Source: Elusimicrobiota bacterium
GTDB taxonomy: Bacteria; Elusimicrobiota; Elusimicrobia; Elusimicrobiales; UBA9959
NCBI GenBank assembly: GCA_019135865.1
Contig: JAGVVD010000039.1
Location: 1 to 46,374, forward strand
Direction of reading: 5' to 3'
Length of the DNA stretch: 46,374 nt
Positions within the stretch are counted from its first letter, which is position 1; every line of letters starts with the position of its first letter. Shown piece by piece: positions 1-43,322 of this stretch. A program made the position numbers and the translations under genes. The notes beneath the pieces were generated by a model. The model ran no database searches and had not been told where the DNA came from. It saw only the letters and a program-made list of their open reading frames with translations.

Positions 1-1413
1 CGGCGCCGGGCGGGGGGCGGCCGCCGGGCCGCCGGGCCTGGGCGCCGCGCCGGGCCTGCCCAGGGTTATCAGGCCTTCTTTTATGAGCCTCTTCAGCGCG
101 CGGGTCACCTTGAGCCGCTCTTCGCGCTGGGCTTCCGGCGGGAGATTGCGGGTGAGGTCTATCTCCTCTTTTATGCGCTCCAGGAATCCGCCGGAGAGCT
201 TGGAGAGGAAAGGCTGAAGGACGTCGGACCCTTTCAGAGCCGCCGCCATGGTACGGGGCGGGACCCTGCGGGCCAGCGTGAGGGCCTGGGTCTGGTCCAG
301 CAGTTTCAGCGAGGAGAACTTTATCAAGGTCCCGGATACCTTCCGGGAGAAGACGGGGTCCGTGACCATCATGGCCGAGACGGCCCTGTCCTGCATGGCG
401 TCCGGCAGGGTCTCCAGGAGTTCGACGGTCTTCTGCTCGCCGCCCACCACGTAATCCAGCGCGGAGGCTATTTCGGATTCCACCTTGCGCACTTTCTCCT
501 CCGGCATGAGGGTCACTTTGGGAAGCTGGGCGACGGCCTCAAGGCTGGCGGGATAGAGCATCTCCACCAGGCGGGCGGAGACTTCGCGGGGGGAATAACT
601 GAGAACGATCGTCAGGTCCTGGGCGGGCCTGTCCCTGAGTATGAAAGCCAGGTTCGGTACGACGGAATCGTTGATGAACCAGAAAGGCGGCTTCTTCCCG
701 TCCTCGCCGGAGGCGGCCTGCGGCGCGGCCTGGCGGGCCGCGGCGGCTTCTTCGTCCTGCTTCGCCCTGGCCTCGAGAGCGGCTTCGCGGGCGCCGCCGT
801 TCTGTGAGAGTTCGGACATTTTCGCGCTGACCATGCTGACGACGTTGCGGGCGGTCCCGGAGAGGGGGGAGAAGAAAGTGGAGACCGTCAGCCAGGCGAA
901 GAGGGTTATGATGATGGTCCAGAGCAGGTACCAGAGGTTCGGCGGGCGGAAAAGGTCGACGGGGTCGAAGGGCTGCGCCCTGCGGAAGTTCATGCGTTCT
1001 ATGGAGATCAGGTCCTCCCTGTCGGCCGGAACTTCGAGCAGTCCGGCGGCGAGCTTGCGCGCCAGCTGCACGTCCTCTTCCGGGAGGGATTTGTCCAGGA
1101 TGACCGTGGCGGAGATCTTCTTCACCATGCTCAGCGAGCGGGAGATGCTGGTCTCGCCGGGACGGGAGCGCTCGGGAATGCCGGGGAGTATATCGAGGGC
1201 GCCCTTCTTCTTCTCCTCGAGCATCTCCGCCGAGATCATGACTATGATATCCTCGGAGCCGAGGGCCTCGGAGAGGACCAGTTTGAGCTTCTTCTCCAGG
1301 GAATTCTCCAGGGCCAGTTTGGCCTCGAGAGAGGAACTGGCCTGCTGCGCCGCCGCGGGCTGGGTAAGGAATATGGCGGACAGTACGACCGCCGGCAGAA
1401 TGTTGAAGCTCAT
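1..1413 (-). CDS. FliF-like/FliG-like fused membrane protein (3' end outside window)
   Basis: The frame stays open from the ATG at 1413 to the window edge (about 471 codons). Residues 1-23 form a signal peptide ending near AQPAAAQ-type residues. Residues about 40-155 resemble the C-terminal periplasmic part of the flagellar MS-ring protein FliF, including ISATVILDKSLPEEDVQLA followed by a VPADREDLISIERMNF stretch. A transmembrane helix (LWYLLWTIIITLFAW) lies near residues 160-182. After an Ala/Glu-rich linker, residues about 250-455 resemble FliG middle and C-terminal domains, including YVVGGEQKTVELLETLPD and RALKRLIKEG near the end. In flagella FliF is the MS ring and FliG the rotor/switch protein, normally separate. 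Here one polypeptide would place a FliG-like domain on the cytoplasmic face of a membrane anchor. No other flagellar gene is visible. A strong promoter lies upstream. The role (rotor, gliding or secretion scaffold) is inference. Confidence 0.75.
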   Translation of the reverse strand, partial: MSFNILPAVVLSAIFLTQPAAAQQASSSLEAKLALENSLEKKLKLVLSEALGSEDIIVMISAEMLEEKKKGALDILPGIPERSRPGETSISRSLSMVKKISATVILDKSLPEEDVQLARKLAAGLLEVPADREDLISIERMNFRRAQPFDPVDLFRPPNLWYLLWTIIITLFAWLTVSTFFSPLSGTARNVVSMVSAKMSELSQNGGAREAALEARAKQDEEAAAARQAAPQAASGEDGKKPPFWFINDSVVPNLAFILRDRPAQDLTIVLSYSPREVSARLVEMLYPASLEAVAQLPKVTLMPEEKVRKVESEIASALDYVVGGEQKTVELLETLPDAMQDRAVSAMMVTDPVFSRKVSGTLIKFSSLKLLDQTQALTLARRVPPRTMAAALKGSDVLQPFLSKLSGGFLERIKEEIDLTRNLPPEAQREERLKVTRALKRLIKEGLITLGRPGAAPRPGGPAAAPRPAP

Positions 1414-1654: not shown

Positions 1655-2695
1655 ATGGGAAGATCCCCGTATACGGTACGACCGCTGCTCCTCTCCTACG
1701 TTCTGGCCGTTTGGGCGGCCGGCCCCGTCATGGGCGCGGGGTCGCCGGGGCTTACCGGAGCCAATTTCCTGAAGATCCCGGTGGCGGCCCTGCCCACCGC
1801 TCTGGGCGAAAGCTACACGGCCCTTATCGGTCCCGATTCGGCCCTTTACAACCCCGGCGCGCTGGGCCTGCTGGGGTACTCCTCGTTCTCCGGAACCCAC
1901 AATACTTATGTGGCGGGGATAACGCAGGAATACGCCGCGCTGGCCGTCCGCACCCGCTACGGGACGGCCGGGCTCACCTTTTCCTCTCTTTCGAGCGGCA
2001 AGATAACCGCCTACGATTCCGAAGACCAGACGATCGGGGATACGGACACCTCCCACCGCATGGTCGGCCTGACCATCGCCCGCTCCTGGCCCGATTTCCC
2101 GGAAGACATCGGCATGATAGACCCGATGATAATCCCGCCGAGCTGGACGCGCGTCCCGCCGGTCATCGACTACCGTCCCAAGGCCTACCGTTTCTCGGCG
2201 GGCGCGACCATCAAGCGCGTTATGGAGGAACTGGACGGTCTGTCTTCGGCGGTGTGGGCGGTCGACGCGGGAGCGATGCTCGTGCTGCCCGGCCGGGTGC
2301 AGTTCGGGGCCTCCGCGCTAAACGTGGGCGGGGAGCAGGATTTCTATTCCGAGGCGGCGCCTCTCCCCAGGTCCTACCGTTTCGGTATCGCCAAGGATTT
2401 CCGCACGGTAAAGGACCTCATCGTCTTCACGGTCTCGGCGGACGCCGCGAAGTATTCCGACACCGACCTTTACTATTCCTTCGGCGTGGAAACGGATTTT
2501 CTGCGATTCCTGCAGCTCAGGGCCGGGTACAGGGGGCTGGAGAGCGCCGGCTCCCGCGGCACGGTCGGGTTCGGCCTGAACTTCGACAAGTTCACCGAAG
2601 GGGGTTTTCTCAAAGGCATCCGGGTCGACTACGCCCATATCAGTTACGGGCCCCTGGGCGCCACCAACCGGATAGGTATGCAGGCCGTCTGGTGA
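1655..2695 (+). CDS. PorV/PorQ-like (UPF0164-type) outer-membrane beta-barrel protein
   Basis: This protein of 346 residues begins with a signal peptide (about residues 1-27, ending VMGAG). The following GANFLKIPVAALPTALGESY and ALYNPGALGLL are the hallmark N-terminal motifs of the PorV/PorQ/UPF0164 family, FadL-like barrels of the outer membrane. In Bacteroidetes PorV acts in type IX secretion. Relatives elsewhere are multicopy and mostly uncharacterised. The rest alternates short hydrophobic strands with turns and ends in aromatic residues (MQAVW), as barrels do. The start at 1655 was chosen because the promoter lies at 1580-1607 and because the signal peptide begins there. It precedes ispA by 58 bases but that gene has its own -10 box. 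Whether a type IX system exists cannot be judged from this window. Confidence 0.75.
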   Translation: MGRSPYTVRPLLLSYVLAVWAAGPVMGAGSPGLTGANFLKIPVAALPTALGESYTALIGPDSALYNPGALGLLGYSSFSGTHNTYVAGITQEYAALAVRTRYGTAGLTFSSLSSGKITAYDSEDQTIGDTDTSHRMVGLTIARSWPDFPEDIGMIDPMIIPPSWTRVPPVIDYRPKAYRFSAGATIKRVMEELDGLSSAVWAVDAGAMLVLPGRVQFGASALNVGGEQDFYSEAAPLPRSYRFGIAKDFRTVKDLIVFTVSADAAKYSDTDLYYSFGVETDFLRFLQLRAGYRGLESAGSRGTVGFGLNFDKFTEGGFLKGIRVDYAHISYGPLGATNRIGMQAVW

Positions 2696-26495: not shown

Positions 26496-26525
26496 TTGCT
26501 TTGTCCGGGGCTCTTGTGCTACAAT
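26496..26525 (+). promoter_or_regulatory. Promoter of the tRNA-Met gene
   Basis: TTGCTT (26496-26501) and TACAAT (26520-26525) are 18 bases apart, and TGC directly precedes the -10 (extended -10). The predicted start falls at or beside the first tRNA base (26531), so a precursor leader would be very short. Confidence 0.5.
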
Positions 26526-28258
26526 AATCCTGCGGGGTAGAGCAGCCTGGTAGCTCGCAAGGCCCATAACCTTGAGGTCGTTGGTTCAAATCCAACCCCC
26601 GCAACCAGTTTTACAGATAAGCCTCTACTTGAATCGCCGTTCGGAATACTCCGGGCGGCGTTTTCATTTGGTGCCGTCGGGATATGGTAGAAGTGGAAAA
26701 TCAGTTTGCGCTCCGTGGGATCCACCTCGATCTTTTCAATATGGGCGCGTATAGCCAGTTTGCGCTGTTCATTGGTCCCATTGGCCATAACCTTCGGGAA
26801 GCTTGCCATAACCTCTTCCACGCGCGCCAGAATGGCCTCAGAATCGGTTTTAAGGCTGGGTTTGGCCCGTTCTGCCGCCAGAGCCTGTTCCAGGTCCTTC
26901 CGCTGATCTTCGAGCCTTCCAAGTTCGTCCAGGAGCGCGGGGGAACTTCTTCCCTGTTTAAGCGCCTCCACCAGATTATGTATCTGGCGTTTGGCGTTCT
27001 CTATACCGGCCTCAAGCGGAGCGATATTCCGGACATCGGTCTTGCCCTCAGCCTCAAGCTTTGCCTTTATTCTGGCCTTGATAGAATCCATTACCTCGCG
27101 CGAGCTGAGCCGGGCCTGTATCTCGCGCAGGGCGAACTCTTCCGCCGCCTGCGCAGGTATGGAGAAGCATGCGCAGACCTGACGGCCCTTTGCCACATAC
27201 CCGCCGCAGGTGTAATAGCGCTTACGGTATTCTCCGTGGTGTTTTGAAAGGCCCTGATAGTTGTGCCCGCAGTTCAGGCACTTCATAAGCCCGGAAAAAA
27301 GGTATTCGTTGTAATACTGTTTGCCTGCGCCCGCCTTGCGGATTTTAAAATAAGACTGAGCCCTGTCGAACAGGTCTTTGGAAATAAGGGCGGGGTGCGC
27401 GTTCTCTTTGAAGACCCACTCCGACTTCGGGTTGAGCGTGTAGCCGCCTTTGTTGCGGTTCTTCCAGCTCCGCACGTTGTAGGTGCGCAGTCCGGTGTAG
27501 GCCGGGTTCTTGAGTATGGCCCTTACCGTGCCCTTGGCCCATTTGCCGTTGTAGGGAGAGGGGATTTTCTTCTCGTTCAGCTTGTCGGTAATGGTGGTCA
27601 TCCCGATGCCGTTGGCGAAATCCTCGAAAATGGAGGTAAGGACGGCGACGGCGGCGGCGCTGCCCTTCGTCCAGATGACGCGCTGTAACTTGTCCGCCTT
27701 GTGCTCGCCGGACTTGAGAATCTTTACGGGGCTGCCGGCGTTGTCTATCAGCAGTCGGTCGTAGCCGTAGGGTGCGCTGCCGCCGGCGCTGTGGCCCTGC
27801 TCAGAGTGGCTCTTACAACCGCGCAGAGTGGTCTGCGAGAGCTTAACCGAATACTCGTGCGCCTCGGAGTGCTTTACTATCTTGGTGACGATGTCGCCGA
27901 TGGAACCGTCGTTCTTGAAGGCGTCCTTTACGTAGACCACCTGGAGCTTGCCCTGTTTCTTGAAGCGCTGTTCCCAGTATATCTTCTCCTCGGCGTCCAG
28001 GCGGCCGAAGCGGCTGACGTCGTAGACGATTAGGAACTTCGCGCCGTGGCTGGTAGTCTCGGCGAGGCGTACCATCTCAAGGAACTGTGAATCCCTGTCG
28101 ATGGTGAGGCCGGAGGCGTAGCCTTTCTCCGGCGTGAACTCTTTCGTTATGGCCCAGCCGTTCTGTTCCGCAAAAAGGCGACAGGCCTTTTTCTGGTCCT
28201 CGATTGAGAACTCCTGAAGGTCCGTCGACCTGCGGTAGAACGCCCAGGCGTAAATCAT
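26519..28258 (-). CDS. Large serine recombinase of the integrated element
   Basis: The 579-residue frame has an N-terminal resolvase domain (catalytic Ser near residue 11, AFYRRSTDLQEFSIEDQKKAC; YDVSRFGR and AHEYSVKLSQ later). A recombinase domain (about 170-290) and a zinc ribbon (CLNCG and, 20-odd residues on, CGGYVAKGRQVC, about 338-370) follow, then a coiled coil rich in Ala, Glu and Leu (about 400-510). Such enzymes integrate and excise phages and conjugative elements between att sites. The last 29 codons are antisense to the tRNA-Met gene, ending in its promoter, so the natural C-terminus was probably replaced on integration. The ATG overlaps the stop of the upstream MerR-like gene by four bases. 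Confidence 0.88.
   Translation of the reverse strand: MIYAWAFYRRSTDLQEFSIEDQKKACRLFAEQNGWAITKEFTPEKGYASGLTIDRDSQFLEMVRLAETTSHGAKFLIVYDVSRFGRLDAEEKIYWEQRFKKQGKLQVVYVKDAFKNDGSIGDIVTKIVKHSEAHEYSVKLSQTTLRGCKSHSEQGHSAGGSAPYGYDRLLIDNAGSPVKILKSGEHKADKLQRVIWTKGSAAAVAVLTSIFEDFANGIGMTTITDKLNEKKIPSPYNGKWAKGTVRAILKNPAYTGLRTYNVRSWKNRNKGGYTLNPKSEWVFKENAHPALISKDLFDRAQSYFKIRKAGAGKQYYNEYLFSGLMKCLNCGHNYQGLSKHHGEYRKRYYTCGGYVAKGRQVCACFSIPAQAAEEFALREIQARLSSREVMDSIKARIKAKLEAEGKTDVRNIAPLEAGIENAKRQIHNLVEALKQGRSSPALLDELGRLEDQRKDLEQALAAERAKPSLKTDSEAILARVEEVMASFPKVMANGTNEQRKLAIRAHIEKIEVDPTERKLIFHFYHIPTAPNENAARSIPNGDSSRGLSVKLVAGVGFEPTTSRLWALRATRLLYPAGLL
26531..26607 (+). tRNA. tRNA-Met(CAT), initiator type, with encoded CCA
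   Basis: The 77-nt cloverleaf has acceptor stem TGCGGGG/CCCCGCA, D-stem GAGC/GCTC with A11:U24 and the initiator-type loop AGCCTGGTA. The anticodon loop is CCCATAA (CAT at 26565-26567), the T-arm GTTGG-TTCAAAT-CCAAC, the discriminator A, and CCA is encoded. The D-arm and T-arm match initiators. Two hallmarks differ: position 1 is U and can pair with A72, where bacterial initiators usually have an unpaired C1-A72. The anticodon stem has A29:U41 instead of the first of three G:C pairs. The gene also serves as the integration target of the element to its right. Confidence 0.9.
26531..26607. other. Attachment site of the element in tRNA-Met
   Basis: The recombinase frame crosses from element DNA into the tRNA with no intervening gap, which places one att junction within or at the 3' end of the tRNA gene. 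The tRNA stays intact, including CCA, as expected if the element carried a matching 3' segment. No second copy of the tRNA 3' end is present in the window, so the other junction lies beyond 46,374. Confidence 0.5.
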
Positions 28259-34535: not shown

Positions 34536-36038
34536 ATGACAAGAATAATCAATCCGATTCCGGCGGCACTTCTTGAGGCTCTGCGTAGCATCGGGTATAC
34601 CCTGGATACTGCACTCGCCGATATAATTGATAATTCAATCACGGCGCAGGCCAGTAAAATTTCCGTCCGTTTCCTCTGGGATGCCGGGAAACCGTGGATT
34701 GCTGTTTGCGACGATGGCTTTGGGATGTCCCAGGACGAACTTGTGGAAGCCATGCGCTTCGGATCTAAGAGCCCGATTGAGAACCGTGACTCGGATGACC
34801 TCGGAAGATTCGGGCTTGGCATGAAGACCGCATCCATCTCTCAGTGTCGCAGAATGACGGTTCTATCAAGCGATAAGGGGAGAATCTCCGCCTGTGAGTG
34901 GAATCTGAATTGCTTGAGCAAGGACGATAAGGCAGAGTGCGGAACCCAGGTGCTGTCTGAAGATGACTGGCGCAAGGATGCTGTTCTTAGGGAGCTCTCC
35001 AAGGAATTCTTCGGAAAAAACAAATCGGGAACAATCATTCTATGGCGCGACCTAGACCCCGGACTGGGCGACCCTAAAGAGGCTAATGGAGAACAACGGT
35101 TTTCGGCTCAGATGGATATTGCACGGAAGCATCTGGAATTGGTCTTTCACAGGTTCCTTTCTCCGTCGGTCGGTCAGAAAAAGATTGGCGTAGACTTCAA
35201 CGATACCCCGTTGGAAGCATTCAATCCATTCGGCCCGTCGGTCCCGGCACGGCAGGAATTACCTGTTGAAAAAATAATGGTTCAGGGGCATGCCATTGTT
35301 GTCCAGCCATATGTGTTGCCCCATCATTCGAAAGCCGGTTCGGTTGCCGAGTATCAGAAGTATGCCGGCGATGAGGGCTATCTGCATAATCAGGGGTTCT
35401 ACATTTACAGGAACAGGCGTCTGATTATCAAAGCGACATGGTTCCGCCTTATCCCGAAGGATGAACTGAACAAACTGATCCGGATTCGCGTCGACATCCC
35501 CAACGCGCTGGATGATATGTGGCGCATTGATGTGAAGAAGTCGCAGGCGAATCCTCCTGAAATCGTGCGTAGAGAACTGAAGAGAGTCATAAATAAAATT
35601 TCCGGCGCGGGTCGTATTGTCTTTACAAATAGGGCTACCCGGTTGCAGAACCGGACAATAACTCCTGTCTGGGCCAGGGAGGTCGTCGATGGCCAGGTAA
35701 AGTACTTGGTTAATGAAGCACATCCGCTTCTGAAAGCTCTGCTTAAAGACATGCCTGATGAACAGAGCGACAGGTTGCGGGCGTGCCTTGAGCTTGTTAA
35801 CTCAACATTCCCGTATGATATGTACTATGCGGACGCTGCGGACGATAAAACAGAATTCGCGGAGTCCGCGCCTGGCGATGAAACAGTCAGGCAGGTTGGC
35901 CTTCAGTTGGTTAAGGCTCTGCGGTCGTGCGGTTTTGATGGGGCAGAACTCCGCAAGCAGCTTGAAAATGCCGAGTTCTTCAAATGTTCCCCTGAAATGC
36001 TCGAGGAAATACTTTCACTTGAGGGGAGCGCTCAATGA
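34536..36038 (+). CDS. MORC/MutL-type GHKL ATPase of a defence system
   Basis: The 500-residue protein has all the GHKL ATPase motifs: LADIIDNSITA (about 26-36, Mg-binding Asn), VCDDGFGM (about 57-64) and RFGLGMKTASISQC (about 90-103). A transducer-like middle follows (YRNRRLIIKATWFR, VDIPNALDDMWRIDVKKS). MORC and MutL ATPases dimerise on ATP and clamp or scan DNA. In prokaryotes such genes are found next to Z1 ATPases, nucleases and DNA methylases in restriction-like systems, exactly as here. It overlaps the Z1 gene start by four bases. A weak ribosome site precedes the ATG at 34536. Confidence 0.88.
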   Translation: MTRIINPIPAALLEALRSIGYTLDTALADIIDNSITAQASKISVRFLWDAGKPWIAVCDDGFGMSQDELVEAMRFGSKSPIENRDSDDLGRFGLGMKTASISQCRRMTVLSSDKGRISACEWNLNCLSKDDKAECGTQVLSEDDWRKDAVLRELSKEFFGKNKSGTIILWRDLDPGLGDPKEANGEQRFSAQMDIARKHLELVFHRFLSPSVGQKKIGVDFNDTPLEAFNPFGPSVPARQELPVEKIMVQGHAIVVQPYVLPHHSKAGSVAEYQKYAGDEGYLHNQGFYIYRNRRLIIKATWFRLIPKDELNKLIRIRVDIPNALDDMWRIDVKKSQANPPEIVRRELKRVINKISGAGRIVFTNRATRLQNRTITPVWAREVVDGQVKYLVNEAHPLLKALLKDMPDEQSDRLRACLELVNSTFPYDMYYADAADDKTEFAESAPGDETVRQVGLQLVKALRSCGFDGAELRKQLENAEFFKCSPEMLEEILSLEGSAQ

Positions 36039-38707
36039 CCAATCTTGAGAAACTTGTCGATTCGGTGTCGGGTATCCTGGCGGACCGGCGGGAACCACCC
36101 ACAGAGGAAGCATTGCTCGGCATCGTTAAGGCCCAGGCCGGAACATTGGCGATGGCCATGGAAAAGTCTGTCAGTGAGCTGTTTACGGAGAAGGATTATG
36201 CCGATGCTGTAAAGGCGGTTGAAACACGTTTTTCAATCCGCATGACTTTGGGGACCATGTTCCAAGCGGAGGATTATCGTCCATGGCTGGTTGCAAAGCA
36301 GGGACAGATCCAATGGTATTACTGGAACCGCTACAGGAAATACCTCCTGAAAAAAGGTTTTCCGCCCAATGTCGTCCGGTCGTTGGATGCACTTACAGAT
36401 AAGATTCTTGATCACACAGAGGACCCTCAGAAAGAAGGCGCATGGACAAGGCGTGGGATGGTTGTGGGCCATGTGCAATCCGGAAAAACTGCGAACTATA
36501 CCGGGCTGATGTGTAAAGCTGCCGATGCCGGCTATCGTGTTATTATTGTTCTTGCAGGGACGCTGAATTCACTTCGAAACCAGACACAGGAGAGAATCGA
36601 CAGCGATTTCATCGGGTGGTGTACCAGAACGAAGGTGCATATAGGGGCCTCAACGTTCGGTACGGAACGGCAACCGATTTGCTTCACTACAAGTGAGGGG
36701 GATTTCAGCCGCCAGACAGCGAACGCTATCGCAATGAAACTCGATGCTGTGAAAGAGCCTGTAGTCCTAATCATCAAGAAGAATAAATCCACTCTTGAGA
36801 ACCTGTACTCCTGGCTGACGGAGAATAACCGCCATAGTCTTCAGAATTTCCCGATGCTGCTGATTGATGACGAGGCTGACCATGCCTCCATTAACACCAA
36901 TTCCAAAGATGAAGACCCGACAGCGATAAATAAGGCGATCCGTAATCTGCTTTCCCTGTTCTCCCGGGCTTCTTTCGTGGGTTATACCGCCACTCCGTTC
37001 GCGAATATCTTCATCGACCCGGATTCTGTTGACGAGATGGAAAACGGCGAGGAATACAAGGATCTGTTCCCGAGGGATTTTATACTCAGTCTCGACCCTC
37101 CGGATAATTACGTCGGTCCTCAACAGCTTCTTGCTGATAATGCCAGCCTGGACTGCGTCAGAGACATAGAGGACAATGAGGAGTATCTCCCTGTCAGGCA
37201 TAAAATAGATTTCACTCCGGAGAAATTGCCTGAGTCTCTGAAAACTTCCATGGCATGTTTCTTTCTGGCAAAGACGATACGGCTGCTGAGGGGACAGCGG
37301 AATAAAAATCACTCAATGATGGTGAATGCCAGCAGGTTCACCAAGGTTCAGAATTCACTTGCGTTGATAATATCCGAACACCTCAAACAGTTTAAGCAAA
37401 GCGTTGTAAATTATGCCGGCCTTATCGAGGAGAAGGCATTACAGAACAGGGACCTCTCATTCCTCCATGATGTATTCATGGAAGAATTCCGGGAGGCCGG
37501 CTTCTCCTGGGCGGAGGTGCAGTCCGGACTCAGGGAGGCTGTTGATCCTATTGAGGTCGTTGTGGTGAATTCGGGTTCCAGGGACAGATTGGATTATAGC
37601 TCCAGAAATTATCCTGGTGGGCGCAGCCTTATCGCAGTCGGTGGCCTGGGTTTGTCCAGAGGTCTTACGTTGGAGGGGCTGATTACCAGCTACTTCCTGC
37701 GAAACTCCATTATGTATGACACTCTCATGCAGATGGGGCGCTGGTTCGGATACCGGGATGGATATGCTGATGTGTGCCGTATTTTCATGACCCCGACGGC
37801 GGCTTCATGGTATTCTCATATCGCTGATGCTACAGAGGAGCTCCGGAAAGATTTCAAAACCATGGAGCTGGCAAAGCTGACCCCGAAGGAGTTCGGACTC
37901 CGTATAAGGAGTCATCCGACTTCCCTTATTGTGACGGCTAGAAATAAGATGCGTACCGGGCGCAAGGTCCCGATGCAGATTGCCTTGGAGGGACGTCTGG
38001 CTGAAACAAGCGTTCTTCTCGCGGACGAGGAGAGCATCGCCCATAACAAGAGAATCCTTGAAGCTGTCTGCCATGAAGCAGAGAAGGAGACTGAAGGTAA
38101 GCTTGAGCAGAACCTGGGTTACCTCTGGAAATCTGTTTCTCCAGCTATTGTCGTTGCTGCAATCCAGGCATTCCGGTTTCATCCTGAAAACCTTCTGACC
38201 TATCCTGAACCATTGGTACAGTATATTGATTGGATGGTGTCGTCATCCGGAGCACGCTTTGACATACTTTTGAGATCCTCTTCGGATACAAGCGTGGGAA
38301 AATACCGGGTGGACGGAAAGGACATCTATCCTATCCGTCGGACTGTTCCTAACCAGGAAAGGAACCGGATAGAATTCACAAAGAGAAGGGTGGCTTCAAA
38401 AGGCGATGAGCGTGCGGGCCTTACCCCGGAACAAATTCTGAAAGTAAAACAGGAACATCCGGCGGATAATCTGCCTGATAGATATTACCGAAACGTTCCA
38501 GGCCGCAATCCATTGCTGATGATTTTCTTCGCCCGGGTTTCCAAAGAGGAGAAGGGGGAAGATTACAGGATTGTGCCGGCCTATGGCGTTAGTTTCCCGG
38601 GCGATTCCGGTTCCGGAAAACGTCCAGCGAAGCTTGTTGAATATGTCGTCAACACCACATGGTGGGAAAAGAATTATGATATGCCTGAAGATGACCCGGA
38701 GGAATAA
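36035..38707 (+). CDS. Z1-domain superfamily II helicase-like ATPase
   Basis: The 890-residue protein has Walker A GHVQSGKTANYTGLM (about 145-160), Walker B LLIDDEADHAS (about 273-283), motif III GYTATPFANIF (about 317-327) and motifs V/VI in GLSRGLTLEGL and LMQMGRWFGYRDGYAD (about 563-579). This is the layout of Z1-domain proteins, a helicase-like family associated with MORC/MutL ATPases. It may use ATP to translocate DNA or remodel the complex. Its ATG overlaps the previous stop and its stop abuts the PD-(D/E)XK gene, so translation is coupled throughout. Confidence 0.9.
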   Translation: MTNLEKLVDSVSGILADRREPPTEEALLGIVKAQAGTLAMAMEKSVSELFTEKDYADAVKAVETRFSIRMTLGTMFQAEDYRPWLVAKQGQIQWYYWNRYRKYLLKKGFPPNVVRSLDALTDKILDHTEDPQKEGAWTRRGMVVGHVQSGKTANYTGLMCKAADAGYRVIIVLAGTLNSLRNQTQERIDSDFIGWCTRTKVHIGASTFGTERQPICFTTSEGDFSRQTANAIAMKLDAVKEPVVLIIKKNKSTLENLYSWLTENNRHSLQNFPMLLIDDEADHASINTNSKDEDPTAINKAIRNLLSLFSRASFVGYTATPFANIFIDPDSVDEMENGEEYKDLFPRDFILSLDPPDNYVGPQQLLADNASLDCVRDIEDNEEYLPVRHKIDFTPEKLPESLKTSMACFFLAKTIRLLRGQRNKNHSMMVNASRFTKVQNSLALIISEHLKQFKQSVVNYAGLIEEKALQNRDLSFLHDVFMEEFREAGFSWAEVQSGLREAVDPIEVVVVNSGSRDRLDYSSRNYPGGRSLIAVGGLGLSRGLTLEGLITSYFLRNSIMYDTLMQMGRWFGYRDGYADVCRIFMTPTAASWYSHIADATEELRKDFKTMELAKLTPKEFGLRIRSHPTSLIVTARNKMRTGRKVPMQIALEGRLAETSVLLADEESIAHNKRILEAVCHEAEKETEGKLEQNLGYLWKSVSPAIVVAAIQAFRFHPENLLTYPEPLVQYIDWMVSSSGARFDILLRSSSDTSVGKYRVDGKDIYPIRRTVPNQERNRIEFTKRRVASKGDERAGLTPEQILKVKQEHPADNLPDRYYRNVPGRNPLLMIFFARVSKEEKGEDYRIVPAYGVSFPGDSGSGKRPAKLVEYVVNTTWWEKNYDMPEDDPEE

Positions 38708-39672
38708 TGATGCGTAACCCTTGGGCCGCAATAGATAAGCCGGATAAAGACTTCAATGTGATGCTTGTCAGTGCCGAGCATCCGCTCAAGCTGTTCTGGG
38801 GTGTTGATACACAGTTGCGCTATCTGTTCGCTTATGATTCTCACTTCGCAGGGCTTCCTCCGAAAAAGAATCTTCCGAACCTGGCCGGGATAGAGATGTA
38901 TGTCGTTCAGCAGGGGGACAGGGGGAAACTCCTGCTTGTTCTTCAGGACAAGGCTAACTGGGAACTTTTCCATGCGTTATGCTCCGACCTTGTGCGTGCC
39001 ACGGAAAAAATTTCCGACGAACATGCCGCTTCGATAGTTATTGTGCGTCGTCTCCAGCGGTGGCAGGAACTGCTCGGTAAGGTGCGCCCGTCATTGCTTT
39101 CCTCGGAACAGATAAAAGGACTGCTTGGTGAGCTGTTGTTCCTTTCCACTCCGCTTGCCGCTGCCTTCGGTTATGATGAGGCCATAACCGCCTGGAGGGG
39201 GCCGGAAGGTGCTCCTCAGGATTATTCAATAAAGGACACGGCTGTTGAAATTAAATGCCAGTCCGGCGGAACAAAGCCGGTTGTGAGAATCAGTTCTGCG
39301 GATCAGCTCAGTCCGCAGCTCCCTAACGGATACCTTGTGGTGTATACCCTTGCAAATCAGTCCAAGGACGATCCAGGTGCCGTGGACCTGAACTCTGTAG
39401 TGCAGGATGTCCGCAATAAATTAACTGCTGCTGCGGATACAAGCCGGGAGCGGTTCGAGGACCTTCTCTATTTGGCTGGTTATGTAACACGAGAGGAATA
39501 TTCTGATAAAAAATATACTGTCGTTTCTGTGCGGTGTTACCGTCTGAAGGACGGTTTCCCCAGGATTGTCAGTTCTGAACTTATTCCGGGCGTAGAGTCT
39601 GTCACTTATGATGTCCGTCTTGATCGCTGTGCAGAGTTCCAGGCGAAACCTGACTGGTGGACTGTGTCATGA
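38707..39672 (+). CDS. PD-(D/E)XK motif (DUF4420-type) nuclease protein
   Basis: The 321-residue protein contains DYSIKDTAVEIKCQSGG (about 170-187): an Asp followed by E-x-K in a strand, the core of the PD-(D/E)XK nuclease fold, after LLGELLFLS (a helical Glu motif). This and its place after Z1 match the DUF4420 family. It is the best candidate for DNA cleavage in this system. Starts at 38707 and 38710 are equally possible. Its stop overlaps the AIPR ATG. Confidence 0.85.
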   Translation: MMRNPWAAIDKPDKDFNVMLVSAEHPLKLFWGVDTQLRYLFAYDSHFAGLPPKKNLPNLAGIEMYVVQQGDRGKLLLVLQDKANWELFHALCSDLVRATEKISDEHAASIVIVRRLQRWQELLGKVRPSLLSSEQIKGLLGELLFLSTPLAAAFGYDEAITAWRGPEGAPQDYSIKDTAVEIKCQSGGTKPVVRISSADQLSPQLPNGYLVVYTLANQSKDDPGAVDLNSVVQDVRNKLTAAADTSRERFEDLLYLAGYVTREEYSDKKYTVVSVRCYRLKDGFPRIVSSELIPGVESVTYDVRLDRCAEFQAKPDWWTVS

Positions 39673-41723
39673 ATATAAACGAGTACTTTGAAGAATTTGC
39701 GCAGGAGTTGCGTGCTGAGGCCGGTGCCGAAGAGAATTTTCTCCGGAGCACATTTGTTGAGCATATGTGCTCCCTTATGGAGGCGGAAGGTTTTATTCCC
39801 GACTACACCTCCACCAACTTTAAGCATACATCAAAGGGACTCGCCGTGGACGCCTGGTCCTACGATGAGAATCTGATGAAGCTGACTTTGTTCGTGGCAG
39901 ATTATCGGGATTCCGGTAAACTGGAACCTTTGATACAAGGGGAGGTGAACGATAGCTTTAAGCGTTTGGGTAGATTTGTTGAGGCATGCTTTAAGCCGGA
40001 TTACGCGAGGTCATTGGACGAATCGATGCCTGTAACTGGACTCGCATGGCATATCTCGGAAACCAAGGACACCATCAAACAGTTGTCCCTTGTCATTATT
40101 TCCAATGCCGCGCTCAGTTCAAGGGTTGCAAAGCTTCCGAAAGAATCTGTTGCCGGGCTGAATACGCAGTATGACATATGGGATTTTGCGCGTATCTATC
40201 GTTCCGAAACTTCCGGACGTGAGCGGGAGGATATCGAAATCAACCTGAGTGAGTTCGATAAGGACGGGATTTCCTGTCTCCCGGCCTACCTCGGCGAGGA
40301 TTCCATGAAATCCTATCTGATGGTTATGCCTGGAAGTATTCTGGCTACGCTGTATGAAAGGCATGGAGAGCGTCTTCTTGAGCAGAATGTGCGAACTTTC
40401 CTCCAGTTCCGGGGAAACATTAATAAGGGAATGCGCAATACTATTATCAACGAGCCGCACATGTTCTTCTCATATAATAACGGCCTTTCTGCCACAGCCG
40501 AGGATGTCGCAACTAATAAAGACGGGGACAGGCTCCTTTCTATCCGCAACCTCCAGATTGTTAACGGCGGACAGACTACGGCTTCGATTTTCACAGCTGG
40601 CAGAAAGGAGCACGGGGATCTCTCAAAGGTCTATGTGCAGGTTAAGCTCTCCGTGGTCGCCCCTGAACAGGTCGAGGAGGTCGTGCCTAGGATTTCGGAG
40701 TACGCCAACACACAGAACAAGGTCAGCGCGGCGGACTTCTTCTCGAACCATCCGTTCCACCGGAAGATTGAAGAGTTTTCGCGCAGACTATGGGCGCCTG
40801 CCCCTGCCGGTCTTGTTCAGCAGACGCACTGGTTTTACGAGCGTGCACGCGGGCAGTTCATAAACAAATATGCGAGTCTTAAGTACGCTGAGGTGAAGAA
40901 GTTCCTGCTTAAGAACCCGAAAGCGCAGATGTTCACGAAGACCGATCTCGCCAAGTATGTCCGCACCTTTGATGAGCTCCCGCATGAGGTCAGTAAGGGC
41001 GCACAGAAGAACTTCAGCAGTTTTGCCGGTGAGCTGGGCCGTGCCTGGGAAAAGAATGCCGGGAATGACTTCAACGAACTGTGGTTCAAGCAGCTCGTGG
41101 GCAAGGCGATTCTATTCCGTCAGCTGGATTCCCGCATCCTGCGGGCTGGCTGGTATACCGGCTATAAAGCGAACATCGTTGCCTATGCCCTGGCGAAATT
41201 CTCCAACATGGTGGCGGACAGTGATTCCCATATAGATTTTCTGAAAATATGGGAGCTTCAGACGATGCCGGAGAGTTTGGCTGAACAGCTGATGCGGATT
41301 GCCGAGAAAGTTAACGGGATCCTGCTGAACCCGCCTGGCTCTGCGACATCGAACGTGAGCGAGTGGGCGAAAAGCGAGCGCTGCTGGAATGCTGTTAAAG
41401 CGGATAAAATGGAATTGGACGATTCGGTCAGCGAGTTCCTGATCGACGCAGAGCGCGAGCAGGAGCTGGAGTCTGATGCGGCAAAGGATGATGAAATACA
41501 GGTCGGTGTCCATACACAGACTTATGTAATCGAGAAAGGGGCGGACTACTGGAGAGGTCTTCTTGCCTGGGACAATACGAACCGGAAGCTCACTGAAAAA
41601 GAACTTGGGGTACTGAATACCGCGTGTCAGATTCCCAAGAAGCTGCCGTCGGAAAAACAGGCTGATGTTCTGGTCGCGGCGGAAAAACGCGCTAAGCTTG
41701 AGGGATTCTTCCCTGATAAATAG
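39669..41723 (+). CDS. AIPR (abortive infection phage resistance) family protein
   Basis: The 684-residue protein bears AIPR signatures: FSYNNGLSATAEDV (about 270-283), LQIVNGGQTTASIFTAG (about 296-312), EYANTQNKVSAADFF and HPFHRKIEEFSRRLW (about 340-375). Family members were first found in phage-resistance plasmids of lactococci, and the core is predicted to be nuclease-like. The ATG at 39669 overlaps the upstream stop; the GTG at 39657 is less likely. A coiled, charged C-terminus follows. The likely role is sensing or executing abortive infection within the MORC-Z1 system. Confidence 0.88.
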   Translation: MNINEYFEEFAQELRAEAGAEENFLRSTFVEHMCSLMEAEGFIPDYTSTNFKHTSKGLAVDAWSYDENLMKLTLFVADYRDSGKLEPLIQGEVNDSFKRLGRFVEACFKPDYARSLDESMPVTGLAWHISETKDTIKQLSLVIISNAALSSRVAKLPKESVAGLNTQYDIWDFARIYRSETSGREREDIEINLSEFDKDGISCLPAYLGEDSMKSYLMVMPGSILATLYERHGERLLEQNVRTFLQFRGNINKGMRNTIINEPHMFFSYNNGLSATAEDVATNKDGDRLLSIRNLQIVNGGQTTASIFTAGRKEHGDLSKVYVQVKLSVVAPEQVEEVVPRISEYANTQNKVSAADFFSNHPFHRKIEEFSRRLWAPAPAGLVQQTHWFYERARGQFINKYASLKYAEVKKFLLKNPKAQMFTKTDLAKYVRTFDELPHEVSKGAQKNFSSFAGELGRAWEKNAGNDFNELWFKQLVGKAILFRQLDSRILRAGWYTGYKANIVAYALAKFSNMVADSDSHIDFLKIWELQTMPESLAEQLMRIAEKVNGILLNPPGSATSNVSEWAKSERCWNAVKADKMELDDSVSEFLIDAEREQELESDAAKDDEIQVGVHTQTYVIEKGADYWRGLLAWDNTNRKLTEKELGVLNTACQIPKKLPSEKQADVLVAAEKRAKLEGFFPDK

Positions 41724-41741: not shown

Positions 41742-43322
41742 ATGGCTATACCACTTATTGACTTATTTGCCGGCCCGGGCGGACTGAGTGAGGGGTTCAC
41801 CAGTCTCCGGAGACCGAAGGATGATGAGCGCTACTTTGACATTGCGATGTCGGTGGAGAAAGACCCTTTTGCTGTCCGTACCTTGCGTATGCGGTCTTTG
41901 TTCCGACAGTTGCATGACTCGTCAGGGGAGTATTCCAAGGCGCTTGATGAAACCATACGTCTCCGGCTTAAGGGGAAACTCTCCTATGAACAGATTTTCG
42001 AGTTCAAGCCCGAGTCCCCTTTAAGCAGGAAATTCAGCAGTCAGGTAGCCACTGCCGCAGGGCATGTTAAACACATGGCTCTTGGTGTGGCGTCGACGAC
42101 CAGTGAAATACGGAAGACCATCGATGCCCTTAAGTTGCGGCGCAACTGTATAGTTATCGGTGGTCCTCCATGCCAGGCATATTCGCTTGTAGGGCGTTCC
42201 AGAATGGTCGGCAAGCTTGGGCGTGCGGTTTTTGAAAAGGACCACAGGCATTTCCTCTACAAGGAGTATCTGAATGTTCTTCAGGAAGCCGAGCCAATGG
42301 CTTTCGTCATGGAGAATGTCCAGGGACTGCTTTCTGCAACTGTCGCAGAGAAGAGCATGTTCGATGCTATTCTGCATGACCTTTCCGGATTGAACTATCA
42401 GCTCTTCGGTCTTTCATGTGAGGATTCCGATTCTCATTCTTTTAAAAACGACCTCGGGGGCATTCTCCCGACAAAGGAATCACTGCTCCTGCGGGCTGAA
42501 CTCTATGGCGTTCCACAGGCCCGACATAGGGTAATTATCGTCGGTATCCGGAAAGATCTCCTGGCGAATGGCGAGGCTAATGCTCCGCGAAAACTACGTC
42601 GCCGCCCGCTGACAAGTGTTTCGGACGTTTTAGATGGTATGCCGATTATCCGCTCCGGTATATCCGGCGATATAGACGATGGCGAACATTGGCTTCGGGC
42701 CGTAAAGAGGGGCATTGAAGCCGCAAAGAAGGTTCCGGAACTTAAGGTGTCTGCTGAGAGACTTGAACAGAGAATGGAGACCTTCTGGATGGACAGGAAG
42801 GATGCCCGAGGTGGGCAGTATCTGGACCAGAAATCTCCTCGTGCCGGCAGCGGGAATCTCGGGAAATGGCTACACGGCAATATCTCTGTCGGAGTTGTGC
42901 AGCACGAGTCCCGAACACACATGGCCAGCGATCTGGCGCGCTATTTCTTCCTTTCGCTTTACGCTTCCAAGTTCGGGCATACACCTACGCTTAAGGATGA
43001 TAAGGAGTTCCCAAAGGCGCTGTGGCCTGACCATCAGAGTGTTGGGAAAGCTTTCCACGACAGGTTCAGGGTTCAGCTGGCTGACAAACCAGCAACCACA
43101 GTAACGTCTCATATTTCAAAGGATGGTCACTACTTTATTCATCCGAATCCCTTGCAGTGTCGTGCATTGACGGTACGTGAGGCGGCGAGAATCCAGACTT
43201 TCCCTGACGATTATATCTTTGAGGGAAATAGAACCCAGCAGTACCATCAGGTCGGGAATGCCGTCCCACCGTTTCTGGCCAGGCAGGTGGCTGAAAGGAT
43301 TGTTGAGGCGCTGGGGCTTTGA
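41742..43322 (+). CDS. dcm: DNA (cytosine-5) methyltransferase
   Basis: The 526-residue protein has all catalytic motifs: I DLFAGPGGLSEGF (about 6-18), IV GGPPCQAYSLVGRSR (about 138-152, catalytic Cys), VI FVMENVQGLLS, VIII QARHRVIIVG, IX LTVREAARIQTFPDDY and X QVGNAVPPFLARQV. The region between VIII and IX (about 270-440) is the target-recognition domain. It is long and unlike short bacteriophage types, so specificity is unknown. A Vsr gene follows, as is usual for m5C methylases whose product deaminates to T:G mismatches. It probably marks self DNA for the MORC-Z1-nuclease complex. Confidence 0.93.
   Translation: MAIPLIDLFAGPGGLSEGFTSLRRPKDDERYFDIAMSVEKDPFAVRTLRMRSLFRQLHDSSGEYSKALDETIRLRLKGKLSYEQIFEFKPESPLSRKFSSQVATAAGHVKHMALGVASTTSEIRKTIDALKLRRNCIVIGGPPCQAYSLVGRSRMVGKLGRAVFEKDHRHFLYKEYLNVLQEAEPMAFVMENVQGLLSATVAEKSMFDAILHDLSGLNYQLFGLSCEDSDSHSFKNDLGGILPTKESLLLRAELYGVPQARHRVIIVGIRKDLLANGEANAPRKLRRRPLTSVSDVLDGMPIIRSGISGDIDDGEHWLRAVKRGIEAAKKVPELKVSAERLEQRMETFWMDRKDARGGQYLDQKSPRAGSGNLGKWLHGNISVGVVQHESRTHMASDLARYFFLSLYASKFGHTPTLKDDKEFPKALWPDHQSVGKAFHDRFRVQLADKPATTVTSHISKDGHYFIHPNPLQCRALTVREAARIQTFPDDYIFEGNRTQQYHQVGNAVPPFLARQVAERIVEALGL

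Follow-up and report, generated by a model that had tools for sequence, protein, structure and literature searches.

A FliF-FliG fusion gene with adjoining stator genes, and a candidate flagellum-independent motor, in Elusimicrobiota

Introduction

As far as we know, flagella are the only setting in which MotAB drives a FliG-type rotor. The AglRQS gliding motor of Myxococcus consists of one A-type and two B-type subunits of the MotAB family, of which AglQ and AglS are TolR/ExbD-like, and it works without a FliF/FliG rotor. In Bacteroidota, the GldLM motor is an inner-membrane, ion-driven machine thought to serve surface adhesins or secretion. The sole precedent that we found in the open-access literature, which otherwise returned general motor papers, is a FliF-FliG fusion from Chlamydia, which has FliG-M homology and occurs with an injectisome and few listed flagellar genes (FliF, FliL, FlhA) (PMC4768692).

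Here, we describe a fusion gene from the Elusimicrobiota that has parts in common with each of these systems. It shares with the flagellar motor the FliF RBM3, FliG M/C, MotA, and MotB with plug and OmpA-like domains, as well as the order FlbD-motA-motB, which is found in one of its operon types (type II). Unlike in the flagellar motor, the FliF and FliG parts form one protein, RBM1/RBM2, FliG N, FliM, FliN and FlhA are lacking, another operon type (type I) encodes two MotBs, and genes for a barrel and giant surface proteins adjoin. The Chlamydia fusion, compared by its published description, differs in that FliG_C and dedicated stator operons are present here and FlhA is absent. With AglRQS our type I system shares the combination of one A-type with two B-type subunits, but these are of the flagellar type with OmpA-like anchors and come with a FliF/FliG rotor. 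With GldLM systems it shares the likely nature of the motor (inner-membrane and ion-driven) and the proximity of putative PorV-family and sorting-tail proteins. No earlier report of this motor was found in the open-access literature, and one may exist elsewhere.

Results and discussion

A single gene interrupted by a contig end

The analyzed stretch (hereafter, the window) covers positions 1-46,374 of contig C52 from genome G000 (hereafter, the own genome), a 2.95-Mb assembly with completeness rated 100%. The fusion frame starts with an ATG at 1413 and is stop-free down to window base 1, on the minus strand, which corrects the strand as first read. The window holds the 5' 471 codons of a gene of about 503 codons (Table 1), which is truncated at the contig end; the last ~32 codons and the stop are on another contig of this genome, C8, at the extreme end of which the type I motA is encoded. 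The overlap between the two contigs is GC-rich and codes for proline and alanine, and taken alone it could be a chance match, but the gene order is identical in every orthologue. In genomes of the same genus, contig breaks fall within the same fusion gene. The sequence-only reading had named a frameshift separating two genes as an observation that would count against a fusion; such a gene pair is ruled out, as each orthologue, across more than 20 genomes, is one uninterrupted frame of about 450-600 aa. Bin contamination is ruled out by phylum-wide synteny. Genes were called with a simple codon-usage script, so that a number of start sites (e.g., those of L036, L037 and L049) are uncertain and the spacing between genes in AT-rich loci is approximate.

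Table 1. Features of the fusion gene and its divergent neighbor, in window coordinates.
Feature	Position	Strand	Evidence
FliF(RBM3)-FliG(M/C) fusion gene, type I	1..1413	-	profile, PDB, AlphaFold2, Foldseek
Contig end common to the window and the end of C8	1..22		22-bp exact in-frame overlap; links fusion to motA-motB-motB-TPR
Predicted FliG middle and C-terminal domains, residues 244-452	58..684	-	Pfam, PDB, AlphaFold2, Foldseek
Predicted torque helix; G409 at the FliG R281 position, E417 at the FliG D289 position (codon 163-165)	154..189	-	type I alignment
Predicted single transmembrane helix, about residues 160-183	865..936	-	hydropathy, AlphaFold2 helix 159-204
Predicted periplasmic RBM3-type ring-building domain, shortened collar, residues 22-143	985..1350	-	profile A3, AlphaFold2
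Signal-peptide-like N-terminus, residues 1-22	1348..1413	-	sequence MSFNILPAVVLSAIFLTQPAAA; model helix 6-14
PorV/PorQ-family outer-membrane protein gene, divergent	1655..2695	+	NCBIfam PorV_fam 3.6e-22, below curated cut-off; synteny in most orthologous loci

Domain architecture of the fusion protein

A single frame with a signal peptide, a FliF-type periplasmic domain, one transmembrane helix and FliG M/C domains had been proposed from the letters of the sequence, and sequence, profile and predicted-structure searches all agree with this. Judged by these matches and by the model, the protein is a FliF S-ring motif (RBM3) joined to FliG M and C domains. Searched alone, it matched Pfam FliG_C above the cut-off (4.1e-9), NCBIfam fliG at 3.9e-4, and FliG entries of the PDB at 1.6e-9 (residues 242-456), while the single-sequence match to RBM3 was weak (YscJ_FliF_C, 0.022, below the cut-off). 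A profile of the N-terminal, periplasmic part built from 25 relatives (A3) reached FliF RBM3 in the PDB (9yh6, 2.9e-10), along with further FliF entries and SpoIIIAG (3.1e-6).

Structure prediction, which the sequence-only reading had proposed alongside the profile searches, returned the parts in the order that it gave. In the AlphaFold2 model (mean pLDDT 81.7), residues 22-141 adopt an RBM3-type fold (helix 22-51, strand 57-64, strand 97-107, helix 112-126, strand 136-141), one long membrane helix extends from residue 159 to 204, and a helical FliG M/C part covers residues 249-446, mostly with pLDDT >90. A Foldseek search against the PDB ranked FliG entries 1-13, and ranks 14-32 were mainly FliF RBM3/S-ring entries. 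RBM1, RBM2 and FliG N were not seen in the fusion protein. The claim that the N-terminal ring-building domains of FliF are missing holds for RBM1/RBM2, but not for RBM3, a ring-building motif that is retained.

A stator operon continues from the fusion gene

On C8, the end of the fusion gene is followed by genes for MotA (261 aa), MotB-a (224 aa), MotB-b (214 aa) and a TPR protein (295 aa), with a 4-bp overlap between consecutive genes of these four. The statement that no flagellar genes are near was correct inside the window, but motA, motB-a and motB-b come next once the adjoining contig is considered. The complete fusion-motA-motB-motB-TPR operon was detected in all 21 orthologous loci examined, from several families and with many 4-bp overlaps. 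The own MotA aligned end to end with a solved flagellar MotA (5e-52), and MotB-a and MotB-b matched a solved MotB (1.4e-29 and 4.6e-24, respectively), with the transmembrane (ion-binding) Asp aligned in both; Pfam identified MotB_plug and OmpA in the L034 homologues of the MotBs. It is nearly certain that the fusion gene has cognate stator genes, and there is a strong likelihood that the fusion and MotA/MotB are a true rotor-stator pair.

The ion-binding Asp is found in both MotBs in 18 of 22 type I loci and in at least one MotB in all 22, and no locus among the 22 has lost it from both. The replacing residue is C, C and G in MotB-a of L041, L045 and L048, respectively, and A in MotB-b of L046. 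The two different MotBs probably form a heterodimeric axle, and thus would make a heterodimeric stator; with the Asp lost from one MotB in four loci and never from both, the need for two ion sites would be directly testable.

These partners bear on whether the fusion rotates at all. It could instead be a static scaffold or a periplasmic channel, comparable to SpoIIIAG rings, with a FliG-like docking domain, as the SpoIIIAG match of the periplasmic profile and the missing FliM/FliN switch would allow. We regard this as improbable, given operon partners that are complete flagellar-type stators with the ion-binding Asp and the acidic residue retained on the torque helix.

Rotor-stator contact residues

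In the rotor-stator interface, MotA R90 contacts FliG D288-D289 and MotA E98 contacts FliG R281 (PMC12505986). With these E. coli residue numbers placed by us onto the type I alignment, all 22 type I fusions have Glu at the D289 position, and 21 of the 22 have Gly at the R281 position. In MotA, all 21 type I rows with a residue at the R90 position have a basic one, and E98 is replaced by Ala, Gln, Ser or Thr in almost every type I MotA. One FliG-MotA charge contact is thus retained (R90-D289), whereas the other has lost its charged residues on both sides. Glu occupies the D288 position in 24/24 type II fusions. The EHPQ motif of FliG_M, which binds FliM, is unconserved in the fusions, and this fits the absence of FliM/FliN.

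Flagellar genes are mostly missing

We searched for the flagellar genes FlhA, FliM/FliN and YscJ_FliF. FlhA, the type III export gate (PF00771, FHIPEP), was detected in 3 of 248 Elusimicrobiota genomes, with control genomes positive. In the own genome, the searches found no FlhA/SctV export gate of flagella or injectisomes (PF00771), no FliM/FliN (PF01052) and no FliF RBM1/RBM2 (PF01514); for each of the latter two, 2 of 41 family genomes were positive, i.e., the flagellar-gene-bearing G010 and G028. The flagellar features that are present are the FliG torque domain and the MotA/MotB stator with its ion-binding Asp. A part of an injectisome was also considered for the fusion and rejected; the FHIPEP export gate was not found in the own genome.

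Within this mostly non-flagellated family, FliM/FliN and true FliF are carried on G028:C78 and G010:C22. In G028, C78 encodes FlhA as well, and contig C132 carries a type II fusion operon.

Three deep clades of fusions

Among the 248 Elusimicrobiota genomes, 94 were matched by a profile of all fusion types, and these matches cover 49 of 76 genera. The best E value was about 1e-38 or lower in every positive genome except G082 and G021. G082 encodes FlhA, and its weak match may represent a genuine flagellar FliG. There are up to seven fusion copies per genome, and the stops reported for paralogues by the phylum-wide search were isolated only. A tblastn search against plasmids gave no matches. 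In a tree of 61 fusions, which has some long branches and a midpoint root for drawing only, three supported deep clades each span several families. Each clade usually has its own MotA/MotB, and the operons are clade-specific, i.e., fusion-motA-motB-motB-TPR (type I), PorV/TPR-fusion-coiled coil-FlbD-motA-motB-lipoprotein (type II), and PorV-fusion with motA and motB (type III); the own genome carries types I and II. For some paralogues (e.g., L052, L053 and L125), no MotA/MotB was found within the stretch examined. Very long predicted coiled-coil/repeat proteins (about 1,200-2,100 aa) adjoin the type II fusions of L108, L109, L110, L112 and L113.

With flagellar genes missing from most of the phylum and a few members that have FlhA, and so are probably flagellated, the fusion might be taken for the decaying remnant of a lost flagellum. 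We give this very little credence, as the fusions are long-conserved and multi-copy, fall into three deep clades with clade-specific partner genes, and in G028 exist on a separate contig from the flagellar genes.

Surface protein genes next to the fusion

Beyond the TPR gene on C8, and convergent to it, are a gene for an outer-membrane barrel (635 aa) and then one for a 1,535-aa kelch/fibronectin protein. The 635-aa barrel protein convergent to type I operons is predicted to have an N-terminal Ig-like domain, 26 beta strands and a terminal Phe (mean pLDDT 86.4). Its best fold match was 6r2q chain B of the Mtr complex (TM 0.53), which we take to be the outer-membrane porin of that complex. The neighboring giant proteins have kelch, fibronectin and carboxypeptidase-regulatory domains and type IX-like tails, the tail domain being above the cut-off in L034 and below it in the giant protein of the own genome.

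A proposed motor

On balance, we favor the view that the fusion supplies the rotor subunit for an ion-driven motor that is independent of flagella and acts on an outer-membrane or surface apparatus. The more general idea of a rotor outside the flagellum, raised in the sequence-only reading, is supported, as is the FliF-like and FliG-like architecture behind it. In the proposed motor, the RBM3 domains would assemble into a periplasmic ring, the membrane helix would span the inner membrane, and the fused FliG M/C domains would form a cytoplasmic track, pushed by a stator of MotA and two different peptidoglycan-anchored MotBs. In a cell that shows neither an export gate nor a FliM/FliN switch nor any sign of a flagellum, the ring would have to couple to an outer-membrane or surface assembly; from the gene neighborhood, we infer that this is the one encoded alongside, with the 26-stranded barrel, TPR, PorV-family and giant kelch/fibronectin-repeat proteins. 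The rotating ring would then move surface adhesins, i.e., drive gliding, with chemotaxis genes steering it in some relatives. The fusion gene and its adjoining motor genes suggest that the whole phylum reuses the flagellar motor for a non-flagellar surface task.

A family that has the rotor-stator core without the export gate and the switch would amount to a minimal flagellar motor occurring in nature, and would bear on how motor and export apparatus were joined. The one-gene rotor would be useful for structural work, and, under the proposal, bacteria considered non-flagellated would be expected to be motile or to run active transport at their surface.

Gliding or secretion

Gliding, secretion and another rotary device, the uses suggested earlier, are still the leading candidates as far as sequence comparison can tell. 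The main rival to our proposal is that the motor energizes a type IX-like secretion system, in which it replaces GldL/GldM and powers an SprA-like translocon that exports the giant proteins. PorV-family genes do adjoin the fusions, and the giant proteins nearby have sorting-tail matches. GldM (PF12081), a component of the GldLM motor, gave nothing significant in the 41 family genomes including the own, in a search made without a T9SS-positive control genome. An SprA-like protein is encoded in the own genome and in 40/41 family genomes; it is missed by Pfam SprA_N and detected by the full-length model (TIGR04189), which in the own genome matches a 1,813-codon frame only partially and below the curated cut-off (6.9e-23). 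This SprA-like gene, however, is single-copy where there are up to seven fusions, is also present in the fusion-less G009, G015, G019 and G023, and adjoins LptF/LptG-like permeases, and we consider the secretion reading unlikely, though less so than a static scaffold. In the own genome, the SprA-like gene is at G000:C43:13811-16675 (L157), encodes about 1,800 aa and has two LptF/LptG-permease-like genes beside it.

In three genomes, the fusion has chemotaxis genes as neighbors, namely G011 (CheB, CheR and two CheW), G134 (CheC and CheD) and G224 (CheB, CheR, CheW and MCP), and FlhA was not found in any of the three. The fusion was present in 22 of 26 CheW-bearing versus 72 of 222 CheW-less genomes (Fisher p 3.4e-7, ignoring genome size and kinship). 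As no CheW was found in the own genome, chemotactic control is not general. Because chemotaxis genes accompany the fusion, and the SprA-like gene occurs without it in several genomes, we rate gliding or adhesin transport above secretion; surface motility as the output is plausible, at slightly under even chances. More tentatively still, the fusions may represent a separate class of filament-less, trans-envelope rotary machine, with a one-piece rotor, a hetero-MotB axle in type I and barrel/adhesin-coupled gliding, of which at least three ancient paralogous motors would exist, often several per cell.

Other genes in the window

Four consecutive plus-strand genes at 34536-41723 match PADLOC MzaB (1e-79), MzaC (4e-145), MzaD (2e-18) and MzaE (9e-73), and probably encode an Mza anti-phage defense system. 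They are accompanied by a cytosine methyltransferase gene at 42204-43322, and a gene for a 579-aa protein is located nearby on the opposite strand (26519-28258).
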